DNA from: Catalimonadaceae bacterium JC749
GTDB lineage: Bacteria; Bacteroidota; Bacteroidia; Cytophagales; Cyclobacteriaceae
Assembly (NCBI GenBank): GCA_021730635.1
Contig: JAJNNC010000004.1
Coordinates: forward strand, 62,001-126,000
Length of the DNA: 64,000 nt
Direction: 5' to 3'
Both the position numbers and the translations under genes were made by a program. The notes beneath the pieces were generated by a model. It saw only the letters and a list, made by a program, of their open reading frames with translations. It had not been told where the DNA came from and ran no database searches. This document shows positions 9,929 to 15,647 of this stretch, one piece after another. The stretch's first letter is position 1. Every line of letters begins with the position of its first letter.

Positions 9929-10255
9929 TTATTTTTCCCAAGAAATGGGCGTTTGTTGATAATGTTTCATTTCCTGAATATGCTCAAAGTAGGGTTTGAC
10001 AAGGTTGAAGAAACCTGAAAATTGGGCACTTTTTCTGAAGCCGTTCAGATGCTCTTCTTTGGAAGTCCAATAGATGGTTTCTATAAAATGGTTCGGTTCA
10101 TCCACCCCATGCAGCACATGATATCCCAGACAATAGGGTGAGTCTTTCAGAAATTTACCAGCTTCTTCATAAGCGTTTACAAAACTTTCTGCTTTTTCAA
10201 CAGCAATGTTGTATCTGATGATTTCTACGGAAGGATTTTGAGGTTGATGAGGCAT
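9929..10255 (-). CDS. Antibiotic-biosynthesis-monooxygenase (ABM) domain protein
   Basis: A 108-residue single-domain protein with the ferredoxin-like dimeric alpha/beta barrel pattern: IIRYNIAVEKAESFVNAYEEAGKFL, then a strand-rich LGYHVLHGVDEPNHFIETIYWTSKEEHLNGFRKSAQFSGFF. ABM proteins include quinol and heme monooxygenases that work without cofactors and small stress proteins. The closing EHIQEMKHY is also common in this family. It is divergently placed from an HxlR regulator, with a perfect inverted repeat between them, so regulation by that HxlR protein is likely (inference). The substrate is unknown. Confidence 0.8.
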   Translation of the reverse strand: MPHQPQNPSVEIIRYNIAVEKAESFVNAYEEAGKFLKDSPYCLGYHVLHGVDEPNHFIETIYWTSKEEHLNGFRKSAQFSGFFNLVKPYFEHIQEMKHYQQTPISWEK

Positions 10256-10316
10256 GACATTCCTATTAATTTGTATGTTGTAATAAAAGTATCACTTCCG
10301 ATATAGAGAAACAATA

Positions 10317-10334
10317 ACTTACCAAAAGGTAAGT
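10317..10334. promoter_or_regulatory. Candidate HxlR operator (perfect 7-bp inverted repeat)
   Basis: ACTTACC-AAAA-GGTAAGT is an 18-bp site with perfect 7-bp arms and a 4-bp centre. It lies 22 bp before the HxlR start codon and about 62 bp before the ABM gene start, as expected for an autoregulated divergent promoter. HxlR regulators bind as dimers to short palindromes; binding here is inferred. Confidence 0.6.
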
Positions 10335-10355
10335 CCACTACCAACGCATGACGAT

Positions 10356-10721
10356 ATGATTAAATGGAACAACAAAGAGTTTACCTGCCCGGTAGATGTC
10401 AGTCTGAGTTTTATAAGCGGAAAGTGGAAAATATTAATCCTTTCCCATCTTTGTCAGATAGAAAAAAAGGGCTTTAGCGATCTTAGAGAAAACCTGCCCG
10501 GCATCTCAGAAAAGATGTTGAGTCAACAGTTAAAACAATTGGAGAAAGACCAACTCATCAGTAAATCAGTGTTGTCTTTGAAGCCTTACCGGGTGGAGTA
10601 TTCCTTGACCGACACCGGGAAGTCATTCGGTCCCTTGTTCACGTTTTTAAGCCAATGGGGCATTACCTTTTTAAAAAGAAAGGGTATTGATTATATAAAG
10701 GATCAACATTTATATAAATAA
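10356..10721 (+). CDS. HxlR family winged-helix transcriptional regulator
   Basis: A 121-residue regulator of the HxlR type. The family's features are in order: the N-terminal Cys in EFTCPVDVSLSFISGKWKILIL, the winged-helix core LRENLPGISEKMLSQQLKQLEKDQLI, and the wing KPYRVEYSLTDTGKSFGPLF. The N-terminal Cys (residue ~9) is the position used for thiol sensing of quinones, aldehydes or disulfide stress in HypR/YodB-like relatives; only one Cys is near the N-terminus. It is divergent from the ABM gene and is followed by an OsmC gene on the same strand, so an electrophile or peroxide response is a reasonable inference. Confidence 0.92.
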   Translation: MIKWNNKEFTCPVDVSLSFISGKWKILILSHLCQIEKKGFSDLRENLPGISEKMLSQQLKQLEKDQLISKSVLSLKPYRVEYSLTDTGKSFGPLFTFLSQWGITFLKRKGIDYIKDQHLYK

Positions 10722-10822
10722 TGCCCTTAATCATTCTCAGAGAGCGAAAGAAACTTTCTGAAGTCGTGAGAATTGATGCAAACAGATCTCAACCTTTTTA
10801 TCGGTGAGCCGTGACCAATCGT

Positions 10823-11299
10823 ATGAAGAACCATCACTACCACATTGAGGTACGCTGGACAGGCAATACAGGTTCCGGCACTTCCTCGTACCGGGCATAC
10901 CGGCGCGACCATGTGATTTCAGCTGCCCAAAAACCTATTATTCCCGGTTCTTCCGACCCACACTTCCGGGGTGATCCTGCCCGGTATAATCCGGAGGAAA
11001 TGTTTGTGGCATCACTTTCTACCTGTCATATGTTGTGGTATCTGCATCTGTGTGCTGATGCCGGGATTGTGGTGACCGCCTATGAAGATCATGCGACCGG
11101 TCTGATGGAAGAGGGAAAAGACGGAGGGGGCCATTTCCGGGAAGTCACCTTACATCCAGTGGTCACCATTACGGATGAAACCAAATTGTCATTGGCCGGG
11201 CAATTGCACCATCAGGCCCATGAACGGTGCTTTATCGCTAATTCCGTAAATTTTCCGGTACTGCATCAACCGACTACCCGTATCAGCAGACCGGAGTAA
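10823..11299 (+). CDS. OsmC/Ohr family peroxiredoxin-like protein
   Basis: A 158-residue OsmC-family protein. These homodimeric, cysteine-based enzymes reduce organic hydroperoxides. The first conserved Cys is in EMFVASLSTCHMLWYLHLCADAG and the second in the late CFIANSVNFPVL helix. The N-terminus HHYHIEVRWTGNTGSGTSSY..YRRDHVISA is the common start of the YhfA/OsmC branch in Bacteroidota. Both redox Cys positions appear present. ATG 10823 is preferred; a GTG at 10811 would add four residues. It lies ~100 bp after the HxlR gene on the same strand, and could be read from the HxlR promoter. Confidence 0.9.
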   Translation: MKNHHYHIEVRWTGNTGSGTSSYRAYRRDHVISAAQKPIIPGSSDPHFRGDPARYNPEEMFVASLSTCHMLWYLHLCADAGIVVTAYEDHATGLMEEGKDGGGHFREVTLHPVVTITDETKLSLAGQLHHQAHERCFIANSVNFPVLHQPTTRISRPE

Positions 11300-13254: not shown

Positions 13255-15090
13255 TTAAGTTTCTCCTATAATTTCATCTTCCAATGCGGATTGCAACTGA
13301 TGAATCTGCTGATAGTACCCCGGCTGATGCATCAGCTCGCGGTGATTGCCCTCCTGTACGATCCTTCCTTTTTCCAGCACAAAAATTCTGTCGGCATGCT
13401 GGATGGAAGTGATGCGGTGAGAAATAATGATGGTCGTTTTTTGCCGGATTTCTTCCGTGAGTTTTTCAAAGATGATCCGTTCCGTTTCTGTATCTACCGC
13501 CGAAGTCACATCATCCAGGATGAGTATATCCGGATGGGAGAGTATCGTTCTGGCCAAAGCAACCCGCTGCTTTTGTCCGCCGGAGAGTGTCACTCCTTTT
13601 TCCCCTACTACGGTATTAAATCCATGAGCCAGGATGTTTTCCAGCATGTGTGCCTGCGCCATTTCAGCCGCTGCCAAAATTGCTTTCTCATCAGCATCGG
13701 GAGCCGCATAGGCAATGTTATCACGGATGGAGGCTGAAAACAGGAAAGCTTTCTGCAATACCAAACCAATCCTGTCCCGCAGAAAAGGTTTATCATACAT
13801 CAGCGTGGACTGACCGTCCACATATATTGTACCCGCATCCGGATCATAAAAACGGGTCAGCAGGTTGATAATAGTCGATTTTCCTGAACCAGCAGGCCCT
13901 ACAAAGGCTACCGTTTCTCCGGCTTTGATCCGGAAAGAAATCCCTTGCAGTACATGCTTTTCTGTATGGGGCTGGTATTTAAAGTAGACATGATCAAACA
14001 CGATGTCGCCGCGTAAGGGCTTGGGTTGAGAAATCCCCTGTGGTTCATAGTCTTCCTGCCTGACAGACAGTACCTGAAAGATCCGCTCGATGGCCACGGT
14101 AGCCATGCCCATTTGCGAAAGGATACGGCCTACCTGCCGTAAAGGCCAGGAAACCATGCCCACGTAGGTAAAAAAGCTGAGCAACTCTCCCAGCGTAATC
14201 TTGCCCTGTAGCGCAAAATAGCCTCCGGCCACAATGGATAGGCTGATCTGCAACAGCACCAGAAATTCTGAAAAAGGCCAGAAATGGGTATGCAGCCAGG
14301 CATGTTTTAATCCTACTTTAAGTTTGCGTTGGTTCTGCTCCTCAAATTTTTGGATTTCATAGTCTTCACTGGAAGAAGCCATGACCAGACGAATGCCATT
14401 TAAGTTCTCCTGCACGCATTTGTTGAGACGATCGGCTTCTTCTTCATGTTCTTCCCATACAATCCGCTCTTTTTTGAAGAAAATAAAACCTCCCCAGGTA
14501 ATCAGAGGGACCAGCGCCACAGAGATAATGGCATAAGGCCAGTACACAATCGCCATCATGGAAAAAGCGAATAAAAAGATGGCTGTCAGCCGGATTACCT
14601 CCACAATCTGGTTTTGTGCAAAGTTTTTAACCGTATCCATATCGCCGGTAGCTCGTTGGATCAGCTCCCCTTTAGAAGTCTGGACGAAGTAGCTCAGGGG
14701 GAGTTTTTGCAAATGCATAAACATAGTATCTCGCAGGCTTTTCATCGCTTTTTCGGTGCTGTTGGCGTTCAATGCACTGGATACCAGCAAAAAGCTTCCT
14801 CTGGCCAGGGCAATCAAAAGGTACAGACTGCCCAGGCTTGCCAGGATCCATCCGATATGATCAGAGGGAAGCTGTGACAATAAGTGGTAAAACAGCTCAG
14901 AGATAAAATCCTGGGACGGTCTTTCCTTCTCTTCTCCCAGCACGGATCTCACATAATCTACGGCGATCTGCAGAATCTTAGGTTCCAGACTCGTCAGCGC
15001 AATCCCAATGACCAACAGAAAAGCGGATAGTAGATAATAGTTGAACCAACGGTCCAGTACTTTGATGATATTTTTGATATGTTGAATCAT
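13255..15090 (-). CDS. ABC exporter half-transporter, first subunit of heterodimer
   Basis: A 611-residue ABC exporter subunit with six membrane segments and a C-terminal ATPase domain: Walker A GPAGSGKST (~396), canonical signature LSGGQKQRVALAR (~500), Walker B ILILDDVTSAVD (~520). The residue after the Walker B Asp is Asp, not the catalytic Glu, so one of the two ATP sites should be catalytically weak; that site would use the partner's odd LSTGE signature. ATG 15090 (MIQHIKNIIKVLDRW) is chosen because the 14 codons upstream run toward the leader terminator. It is preceded by a leader ORF and a terminator hairpin ending 41 bp before the start codon, so conditional transcription is expected. 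Confidence 0.9.
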   Translation of the reverse strand: MIQHIKNIIKVLDRWFNYYLLSAFLLVIGIALTSLEPKILQIAVDYVRSVLGEEKERPSQDFISELFYHLLSQLPSDHIGWILASLGSLYLLIALARGSFLLVSSALNANSTEKAMKSLRDTMFMHLQKLPLSYFVQTSKGELIQRATGDMDTVKNFAQNQIVEVIRLTAIFLFAFSMMAIVYWPYAIISVALVPLITWGGFIFFKKERIVWEEHEEEADRLNKCVQENLNGIRLVMASSSEDYEIQKFEEQNQRKLKVGLKHAWLHTHFWPFSEFLVLLQISLSIVAGGYFALQGKITLGELLSFFTYVGMVSWPLRQVGRILSQMGMATVAIERIFQVLSVRQEDYEPQGISQPKPLRGDIVFDHVYFKYQPHTEKHVLQGISFRIKAGETVAFVGPAGSGKSTIINLLTRFYDPDAGTIYVDGQSTLMYDKPFLRDRIGLVLQKAFLFSASIRDNIAYAAPDADEKAILAAAEMAQAHMLENILAHGFNTVVGEKGVTLSGGQKQRVALARTILSHPDILILDDVTSAVDTETERIIFEKLTEEIRQKTTIIISHRITSIQHADRIFVLEKGRIVQEGNHRELMHQPGYYQQIHQLQSALEDEIIGET

Positions 15091-15130: not shown

Positions 15131-15158
15131 AAAAAAACCGCAATCGGGAGGACTGCGG
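15131..15158 (-). terminator. Leader terminator (attenuator) upstream of the ABC exporter
   Basis: On the minus strand, CCGCAGTC-CTCCC-GATTGCGG (8-bp stem with one G-U pair) is followed at once by seven T residues. The nearest upstream gene is divergent, so this cannot terminate any preceding gene; it sits in the 5' leader of the exporter operon. Its left arm (15150-15158) is also complementary to GGACTGCGG inside the leader ORF (15207-15215), the signature of an alternative antiterminator. Confidence 0.85.
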
Positions 15159-15188
15159 CTTATGTATGAATGACAGTGGAATAGGTCT

Positions 15189-15296
15189 TCACTTTTGTTC
15201 ATATAACCGCAGTCCGTGTTCAATGACTGTGAGATAATCCGCCGTTTGAAGGGTCGGACAGGTCAGCAGTACAAAAAAGTTGACTCCGGTTAACAT
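15189..15296 (-). CDS. Candidate 35-residue leader peptide of the ABC exporter operon
   Basis: A short ORF starts at ATG 15296 (MLTGVNFFVLL...) and stops with TGA at 15189 (...RLYEQK). It lies between the divergent promoter region and the leader terminator. Its codons 28-30 (GGA CTG CGG) are exactly complementary over 9 nt (11 with a G-U extension) to the terminator's left arm, and its codons 3-5 (ACC GGA GTC) can pair with the same segment with one mismatch. Coding and RNA structure are therefore interlocked as in ribosome-mediated attenuation. I do not recognise the peptide, and it is too short for coding statistics; the evidence is positional and structural. Confidence 0.6.
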   Translation of the reverse strand: MLTGVNFFVLLTCPTLQTADYLTVIEHGLRLYEQK

Positions 15297-15647
15297 AGGG
15301 TTATTGATTTTCAATGATGTTGCAAATTAACAGCTTTTTCCGGAAAAAAGAAATATAAGTTATGACCATTTTATTTGTTTGATCTTATAGTTTTCTTGCC
15401 CAGGCAGCTCCAGCAGACTACCAATCTTAACCCTTTACGTGGGCCTTCTTCAAGCAAATCTGTAGCATCTATTAAAGATTTGGTATTTTTCAAAGAGGTA
15501 GTACTTTTTATAGTGCAAAAAAGATGTGTCCATTTGCATCATTCAAAAATATTTGTACTTTTAGAACAATACATCCCGATAGCGCAATTTTTATTGTATT
15601 ATTCCTGCATTTATTTTCCCACAATACTAACCTTAAATGTAAGCATT
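15297..15647. other. Divergent promoter region, exporter leader and gamma-CA-like gene
   Basis: About 350 bp without a supported gene. It should contain the promoter of the exporter leader (minus) and that of the lipoprotein at 15648 (plus). An open frame runs through it toward 15648 from 15375, but the lipoprotein signal begins only at 15648. On the minus strand TATATTTC (around 15352-15359) is near the Bacteroidota -7 consensus TAnnTTTG, without a clear -33 partner. Confidence 0.4.

Follow-up and report, generated by a model that had tools for sequence, protein, structure and literature searches.

On the minus strand of the window (the whole 64,000-nucleotide stretch of DNA analysed here) there is, very probably, a ribosome-mediated transcription attenuator by which a heterodimeric ABC exporter is held off until a ribosome stalls during translation of a leader peptide, a reading for which there are no expression data. 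This interpretation, first put forward in a sequence-only reading of the same DNA, is supported by conservation and compensatory changes in 34 orthologous operons and by conservation of the leader peptide in one family of relatives, f47.

We note that the elements themselves are present, and that re-reading the sequence returned the coordinates given in the sequence-only reading. A leader ORF of 35 codons plus TGA (MLTGVNFFVLLTCPTLQTADYLTVIEHGLRLYEQK, 15296-15189), with leaders in the same place in the 34 orthologous operons, is followed by an intrinsic terminator that separates it from the exporter gene, whose ATG lies at 15090. Segment 1 (ACCGGAGTC, 15290-15282), segment 2 (GGACTGCGG, 15215-15207) and segment 3 (CCGCAGTCC, 15158-15150) are exactly where they had been placed, and the terminator, given as 15158-15131, measures as an 11-bp stem at 15161-15135 with its T tract running to 15131. 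Taken to their full extent, segment 1 is AACCGGAGTC (15291-15282, codons 2-5), which can pair with segment 2 and is backed by shuffles and by covarying counterparts in relatives; segment 2 is GGACTGCGGTT (15215-15205, codons 28-31), the antiterminator strand, backed by the fold, shuffles and covariation; and segments 3 (AAGCCGCAGTCC, 15161-15150) and 4 (GATTGCGGTTT plus the T tract, 15145-15131), both backed by fold and covariation, are the left and right arms of the terminator, the former being also the partner of segment 2. Between segments 2 and 3 the fold places a further hairpin, TATGAA...TTCATA, across the leader stop codon (15203-15165). The same position is occupied in many relatives, by GAGGTT..AACCTC in f47 and by varied arms in family f41. 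We also observed that the f47 leaders all carry AAACGGAGG between segment 2 and the stop codon (columns 91-99 of alignment A1) and that CGGAGG, as Arg-Arg codons, recurs in many f41 leaders; both are Shine-Dalgarno-like and at the same time make up the left arm of the hairpin at the stop codon.

The proposed mechanism is as follows. Ribosomes reaching the leader stop codon would cover segment 2, leaving segments 3 and 4 to form the terminator, and transcription would end near 15131. Were a ribosome instead to stall early in the ORF or midway through it, segment 2 would pair with segment 3, no terminator would form and both exporter genes would be transcribed. In a leader that is not translated at all, segment 1 would pair with segment 2 and so favour the terminator. 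The stall would most likely occur under a translation inhibitor, around the Thr-Cys-Pro-Thr codons (codons 12-15, 15263-15252), a candidate site inferred from its position in the peptide without experimental data. Termination in the cell is likewise inferred, as is the dependence of the leader transcript and of read-through on translation of the ORF, for which there are no RNA or reporter data. Translation inhibitors are our leading guess for the inducer, and export of this inducer by the pump is a further inference.

The pairings on which this mechanism depends are of unequal strength. The window leader folds at -52.8 kcal/mol (z = -4.96), a value as low as which was found in none of 200 dinucleotide shuffles. 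The complementarity of segments 2 and 3 asserted by the sequence-only reading is borne out and clearly non-random, at -17.4 kcal/mol (z = -4.5), which 0 of 1000 ORF shuffles reached. The pairing of segments 1 and 2 claimed in the same place does exist in the window, at -15.8 kcal/mol, but it is weaker and only moderately non-random, with 22 of 2000 shuffles reaching that value. In the window fold the 2:3 and 3:4 helices are 11 bp each, and the antiterminator shares the left arm of the terminator, as the covariation also indicates, so that the two structures are mutually exclusive. A stepwise ribosome simulation, in which the ribosome-covered stretch was taken out of the fold at each position, gave the 11-bp antiterminator with the P-site at codons 1-11 and 14-24. 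Codons 12 and 13 gave the terminator, as did codon 25 and all later ones, where its stem was 11 bp; without a ribosome the optimum was the 1:2 pairing plus terminator. By partition function, with the ribosome at codon 14 and segment 4 present, the antiterminator stood at 0.94 and the terminator at 0.01 in the window.

The outcome that would have refuted the attenuator, namely no conservation of the ORF or of the pairing segments in relatives, was looked for and the opposite was obtained. We examined 34 loci, 16 from f47, 15 from f41, two from f82 and one from f65, of which f82 belongs to the order of the window and the other three families to another class of the same phylum. In all 34, a leader ORF of 33-48 codons and then an intrinsic terminator precede subunit 1, and the 2:3 and 3:4 pairings are present. 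The orthologous operons are 45-57% identical to the exporter of the window: about 49-50% in genus g222 and its relatives in f47, with f41 and f65 at a similar distance, and 53-57% in the window's own order, where they were found in f82 (L183 and L184) and in f69 (L185). A homologue of subunit 2 follows subunit 1 in most of these loci. The leader element was looked for and found absent at L185 (53%) and at L003, a Chitinophagales MAG (48%). Among 396 sampled genomes of the window's own family there was no orthologue, only more distant relatives or paralogues below about 40% identity, and the sole other genome of its genus likewise gave only paralogues below about 40%; a close comparison of leaders was therefore not possible, and the nearest relative usable for comparison is at most 57% identical to the window exporter. 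A DNA search of plasmids returned chance matches only. Within genus g222 the segment-2 sequence occurs solely before the exporter, apart from two matches with two mismatches, and it is absent from the two genomes that lack the exporter. As a separate observation, genome G790 of f47 (contamination estimate 6%) carries four copies of the exporter (L144, L148, L149 and L150), each with its own leader attenuator, and the four attenuators represent two leader types.

The same segments change together across these leaders. Segment 2 begins at nucleotides 71-88 of the leader ORF in every leader except L166, where it begins at nucleotide 113. Written over 10 columns as segment 2 : segment 3 : segment 4, with a bulged base in brackets, the core of the window is GACTGCGGTT : AGCCGCAGTC : GATTGCGGTT, that of f82 is GACTGTGGAA : AACCGCAGTC : GATTGCGGTT and that of f41 is ATCCGTGGTT : AACCGCGGAT : ATTCGCGGTT; f47 has a first form, GCCCGC(T)GGTT : AACCGCGGGT : ACTCGCGGTT, and a second, GTCCG(T)TGGTT : AACCGCGGAC : GTTCGCGGTT, and L147 has GTCTG(T)CGGCA : CGCCGCAGAC : GTCTGCGGTT. 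Columns 7, 9 and 10 vary jointly in all three segments, in a compensatory manner. Over 35 leaders with 22 distinct core sets, 93% of the cells of the 2:3 core are paired, compared with 85% when segment 3 is permuted across the leaders, and the observed pairing was never reached in 2000 shuffles; nor was the number of double changes, 261 against a shuffle mean of 48. In alignment A1, of 15 sequences, 94% of 2:3 and 99% of 3:4 are paired, and for both helices 0 of 500 shuffles were as high in pairing or in covariation score. The shuffles over the 35 leaders and on A1 ignore relatedness; A1 also beats all slid structures, which preserve it. Because segment 2 was chosen for best pairing in the 35-leader table, the paired fraction there is inflated. 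When shuffles allowed for this choice, four leaders, all of f47, were the only ones in which 2:3 was weak, at above 5% of shuffles.

This covariation bears directly on a different reading of the locus, in which the terminator would end an independent upstream gene for a small RNA or small protein, the exporter would have its own promoter past the terminator and the complementarity would be incidental. The 40 nt between terminator and gene start could in principle separate two such units, and at some f47 loci the spacing from terminator to exporter, which includes repeats, reaches 238 nt. A 2:3 complementarity that no shuffle in 1000 reached, and whose changes across 35 leaders are matched in both terminator arms, is not what incidental pairing would give, and in L147, L163, L156, L160 and L145 only 13-25 nt separate the T tract from the exporter start, which leaves too little room for a promoter. 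We consider two independent units quite improbable.

If the attenuator is the right reading, folding in the relatives imposes a limit on how it could work there. In most of them the terminator wins at equilibrium with the ribosome at codon 14 (mean 0.88 versus 0.10), and an equilibrium-only ribosome simulation shows no switching, for which reason truncated transcripts were folded as well. Before segment 4 exists, a ribosome at codon 14 leaves segment 2 holding segment 3 (mean 0.91 in the relatives), and with a ribosome at the stop codon 2:3 is 0.00, by construction of the footprint. Since the terminator is the more stable structure at equilibrium in most relatives, a switch there must rely on the order of folding during transcription. 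Folding order has also been proposed by the authors of the bmrB study for an antiterminator weaker than its terminator (PMC4191407).

The leader peptide provides a second line of evidence. In f47, 15 of 15 leaders are exactly 36 codons long, while the remaining two frames are closed by 1-4 stops each. Across these 15 leaders Tyr8 is invariant through two codons (TAT, TAC) and Pro15 through four (CCA, CCC, CCG, CCT), and Thr/Ser13 and Ala/Ser14 are nearly invariant. On this evidence the f47 ORF is under selection as a peptide, and it overlaps the antiterminator strand; for the window leader, which has no close relative, the same may be suggested by analogy with f47 only. Codons 8-15 of the window read FVLLTCPT, codons 8-16 of f47 read YMVFITAPT and codons 9-13 of f82 read YSPIT, so that Thr-Cys-Pro-Thr in the window is positioned like ITAPxT (codons 12-17) in the f47 leaders and like YSPIT in those of f82. 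Many f41 leaders have IAP, IP, SP, VP or TP in the corresponding part, and L151, L153, L159 and L147 are among the leaders without a Pro in the candidate stall region. The Pro-containing motif is a likely arrest site as judged from these peptides, a hint with no experimental test behind it.

Conservation of this kind also counts against a small-molecule riboswitch or protein-binding leader in which the ORF would be incidental. In favour of that reading, the leader is strongly structured, with terminator and antiterminator. We nevertheless regard it as very improbable: the f47 ORF is kept at the amino-acid level, at fixed length and with the alternative frames closed, and an Rfam covariance-model scan of the window leader returned only chance-level matches, with no family at a useful score and no match to Bacteroid-trp. 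An amino-acid-starvation attenuator of the trp/his/leu type would share this architecture; in its favour, f41 leaders carry a Trp codon within segment 2 (PWF) and Leu accounts for 7 of the 35 codons of the window leader. It is nevertheless hardly credible here: in no leader is segment 2 preceded by a run of identical or related codons, base pairing accounts for the one Trp codon, which sits within segment 2, and exporters rather than biosynthetic genes lie downstream.

The least firmly held part of the attenuator model is the role of segment 1. Counterparts of the 1:2 pairing are CTAACCAG:CTGGTTAG in f47, ATCACGGA:TCCGTGGT in f41 and CCACAGTC:GACTGTGG in f82, the last immediately 5' of the ATG, and most are weak individually, the number of shuffles as good ranging from 1 to over 200 out of 300. 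In the window segment 1 lies in codons 2-5, whereas most relatives have it in the 5' UTR, where a ribosome stalled in the middle of the ORF would not cover it. The notion that a stalled ribosome masks segment 1 may thus hold for the window and is not general; a segment 1 in the 5' UTR would instead keep the pump off while the leader is untranslated.

Upstream of the leader there is a weak -7 promoter-like box, TTAATTTG (15330-15323; consensus TAnnTTTG), 34 nt before the ATG, from which the leader transcript is predicted to start near 15316. With one mismatch to the consensus, the box in the window is inferred. Clear TTG...TAnnTTTG promoters occur in relatives, in most cases 50-100 nt upstream of the leader ATG and in L183 31 nt upstream. 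A perfect 14-bp palindrome, TTTTTCCGGAAAAA, lies directly upstream of the presumed box (15348-15335); it may serve a further transcription factor as operator, or have arisen by chance from A/T runs.

The exporter consists of two subunits encoded next to each other on the minus strand, each with ABC_membrane and ABC_tran domains, of 611 aa (subunit 1, 15090-13255) and 610 aa (subunit 2, 13174-11342), identified by domain matches and motifs. Subunit 1 has a degenerate Walker B with Asp for Glu (ILILDD) and a canonical signature (LSGGQKQR), and subunit 2 a canonical Walker B (ILIMDE) and a degenerate signature (LSTGEKQL), a distribution of motifs typical of heterodimeric exporters in which one ATP site is degenerate. 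In PDB sequence searches both subunits fall within the multidrug-exporter superfamily, with BmrC (YheI) at 287-290 bits and BmrD (YheH) at about 309 bits among the matches, though not the nearest. Beside the operon, at 9932-11299, are genes for a protein with an antibiotic-biosynthesis-monooxygenase domain, a regulator of the HxlR type and an OsmC-like protein, which may together form a cluster for redox or electrophile stress.

To our knowledge, drug-induced transcription attenuation by a leader peptide is known almost only from Bacillota. The parallel drawn by the sequence-only reading was bmrB-bmrCD of B. subtilis, in which 50S drugs that slow translation of the leader turn the pump on (PMC4191407). 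There too a heterodimeric ABC exporter lies behind a translated leader and a terminator competes with an antiterminator; the bmrB terminator, however, lies inside the coding region (PMC4191407), whereas that of the window (15161-15131) follows the stop codon at 15189, and BmrC and BmrD are only distant homologues of the window subunits. By analogy the window element may work like bmrB-bmrCD, without relatedness to bmrB having been shown. Given the different terminator position and leaders not shown to be related, we do not class it as a member, and induction by 50S-targeting antibiotics, as in bmrB, is only inferred for it. According to a table in PMC5418344, resistance genes are also subject to drug-induced transcription attenuation in lmo0919 of Listeria, mef/mel (msrD), vmlR and ermK, which differ in their downstream proteins and are all in Bacillota. 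The same paper also cites the tetQ leader of Bacteroides, an attenuated resistance gene in the same phylum as the window; there translation rather than transcription is controlled, and the product is a ribosomal protection protein and not an exporter.

Bacteroid-trp leaders combine Trp-rich ORFs with a terminator. They differ from the window leader, itself without a match in the Rfam scan, in serving amino-acid biosynthesis. The motif (RF01692) is a known cis-regulatory leader in Bacteroidetes (PMC2864571), and leader-like short ORFs have been noted in long 5' UTRs of B. thetaiotaomicron (PMC7366714). The statement that no case had been described in Bacteroidota was consequently too broad, tetQ and Bacteroid-trp being known, and survives in a narrower form: we found no transcription attenuator of a drug exporter in that phylum, in a search of open-licence papers only, where absence is weak evidence. 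An attenuator before the same pump in five Bacteroidota families of two classes seems not to have been described previously.

We speculate, tentatively and with more doubt than conviction, that these leaders represent an old, phylum-wide sensor in Bacteroidota in which programmed nascent-chain arrest, responding to a single class of peptidyl-transferase drugs or natural products, turns on a dedicated exporter. The arrest motif would then be a small residue followed by Pro near codons 10-17 (TAP, TSP, SP, TCP, IAP). Chloramphenicol and linezolid favour a penultimate Ala, Ser or Thr (PMC8987054), with which one of these residues ahead of Pro would agree. If true, this would be the first described case in Bacteroidota of a drug pump under leader-peptide transcription attenuation. 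Conservation across five Bacteroidota families in two classes, ahead of the same exporter pair, would show that the strategy is either ancient or has spread within a phylum whose promoters differ. Because the leader peptide should report the inducer, the leader set also offers a way to learn against what this uncharacterised pump gives protection.

The arrangement may not be confined to Bacteroidota. A Chloroflexi MAG (L010, 192-394) has, at an exporter homologue 36% identical to that of the window, a 47-codon leader ORF and a strong terminator; the 2:3 pairing there is suggestive, being matched in 13 of 1000 shuffles. Short ORFs and terminators also occur at a few of the Bacillota homologues among L004-L012 and L028. 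For instance, in L006, L008 and L028 (42-43% identical) a short ORF with a Shine-Dalgarno sequence and a hairpin of the GGCAC..GTGC(C)TTTTT type lie shortly upstream of the exporter, and these hairpins are possible separate attenuators.
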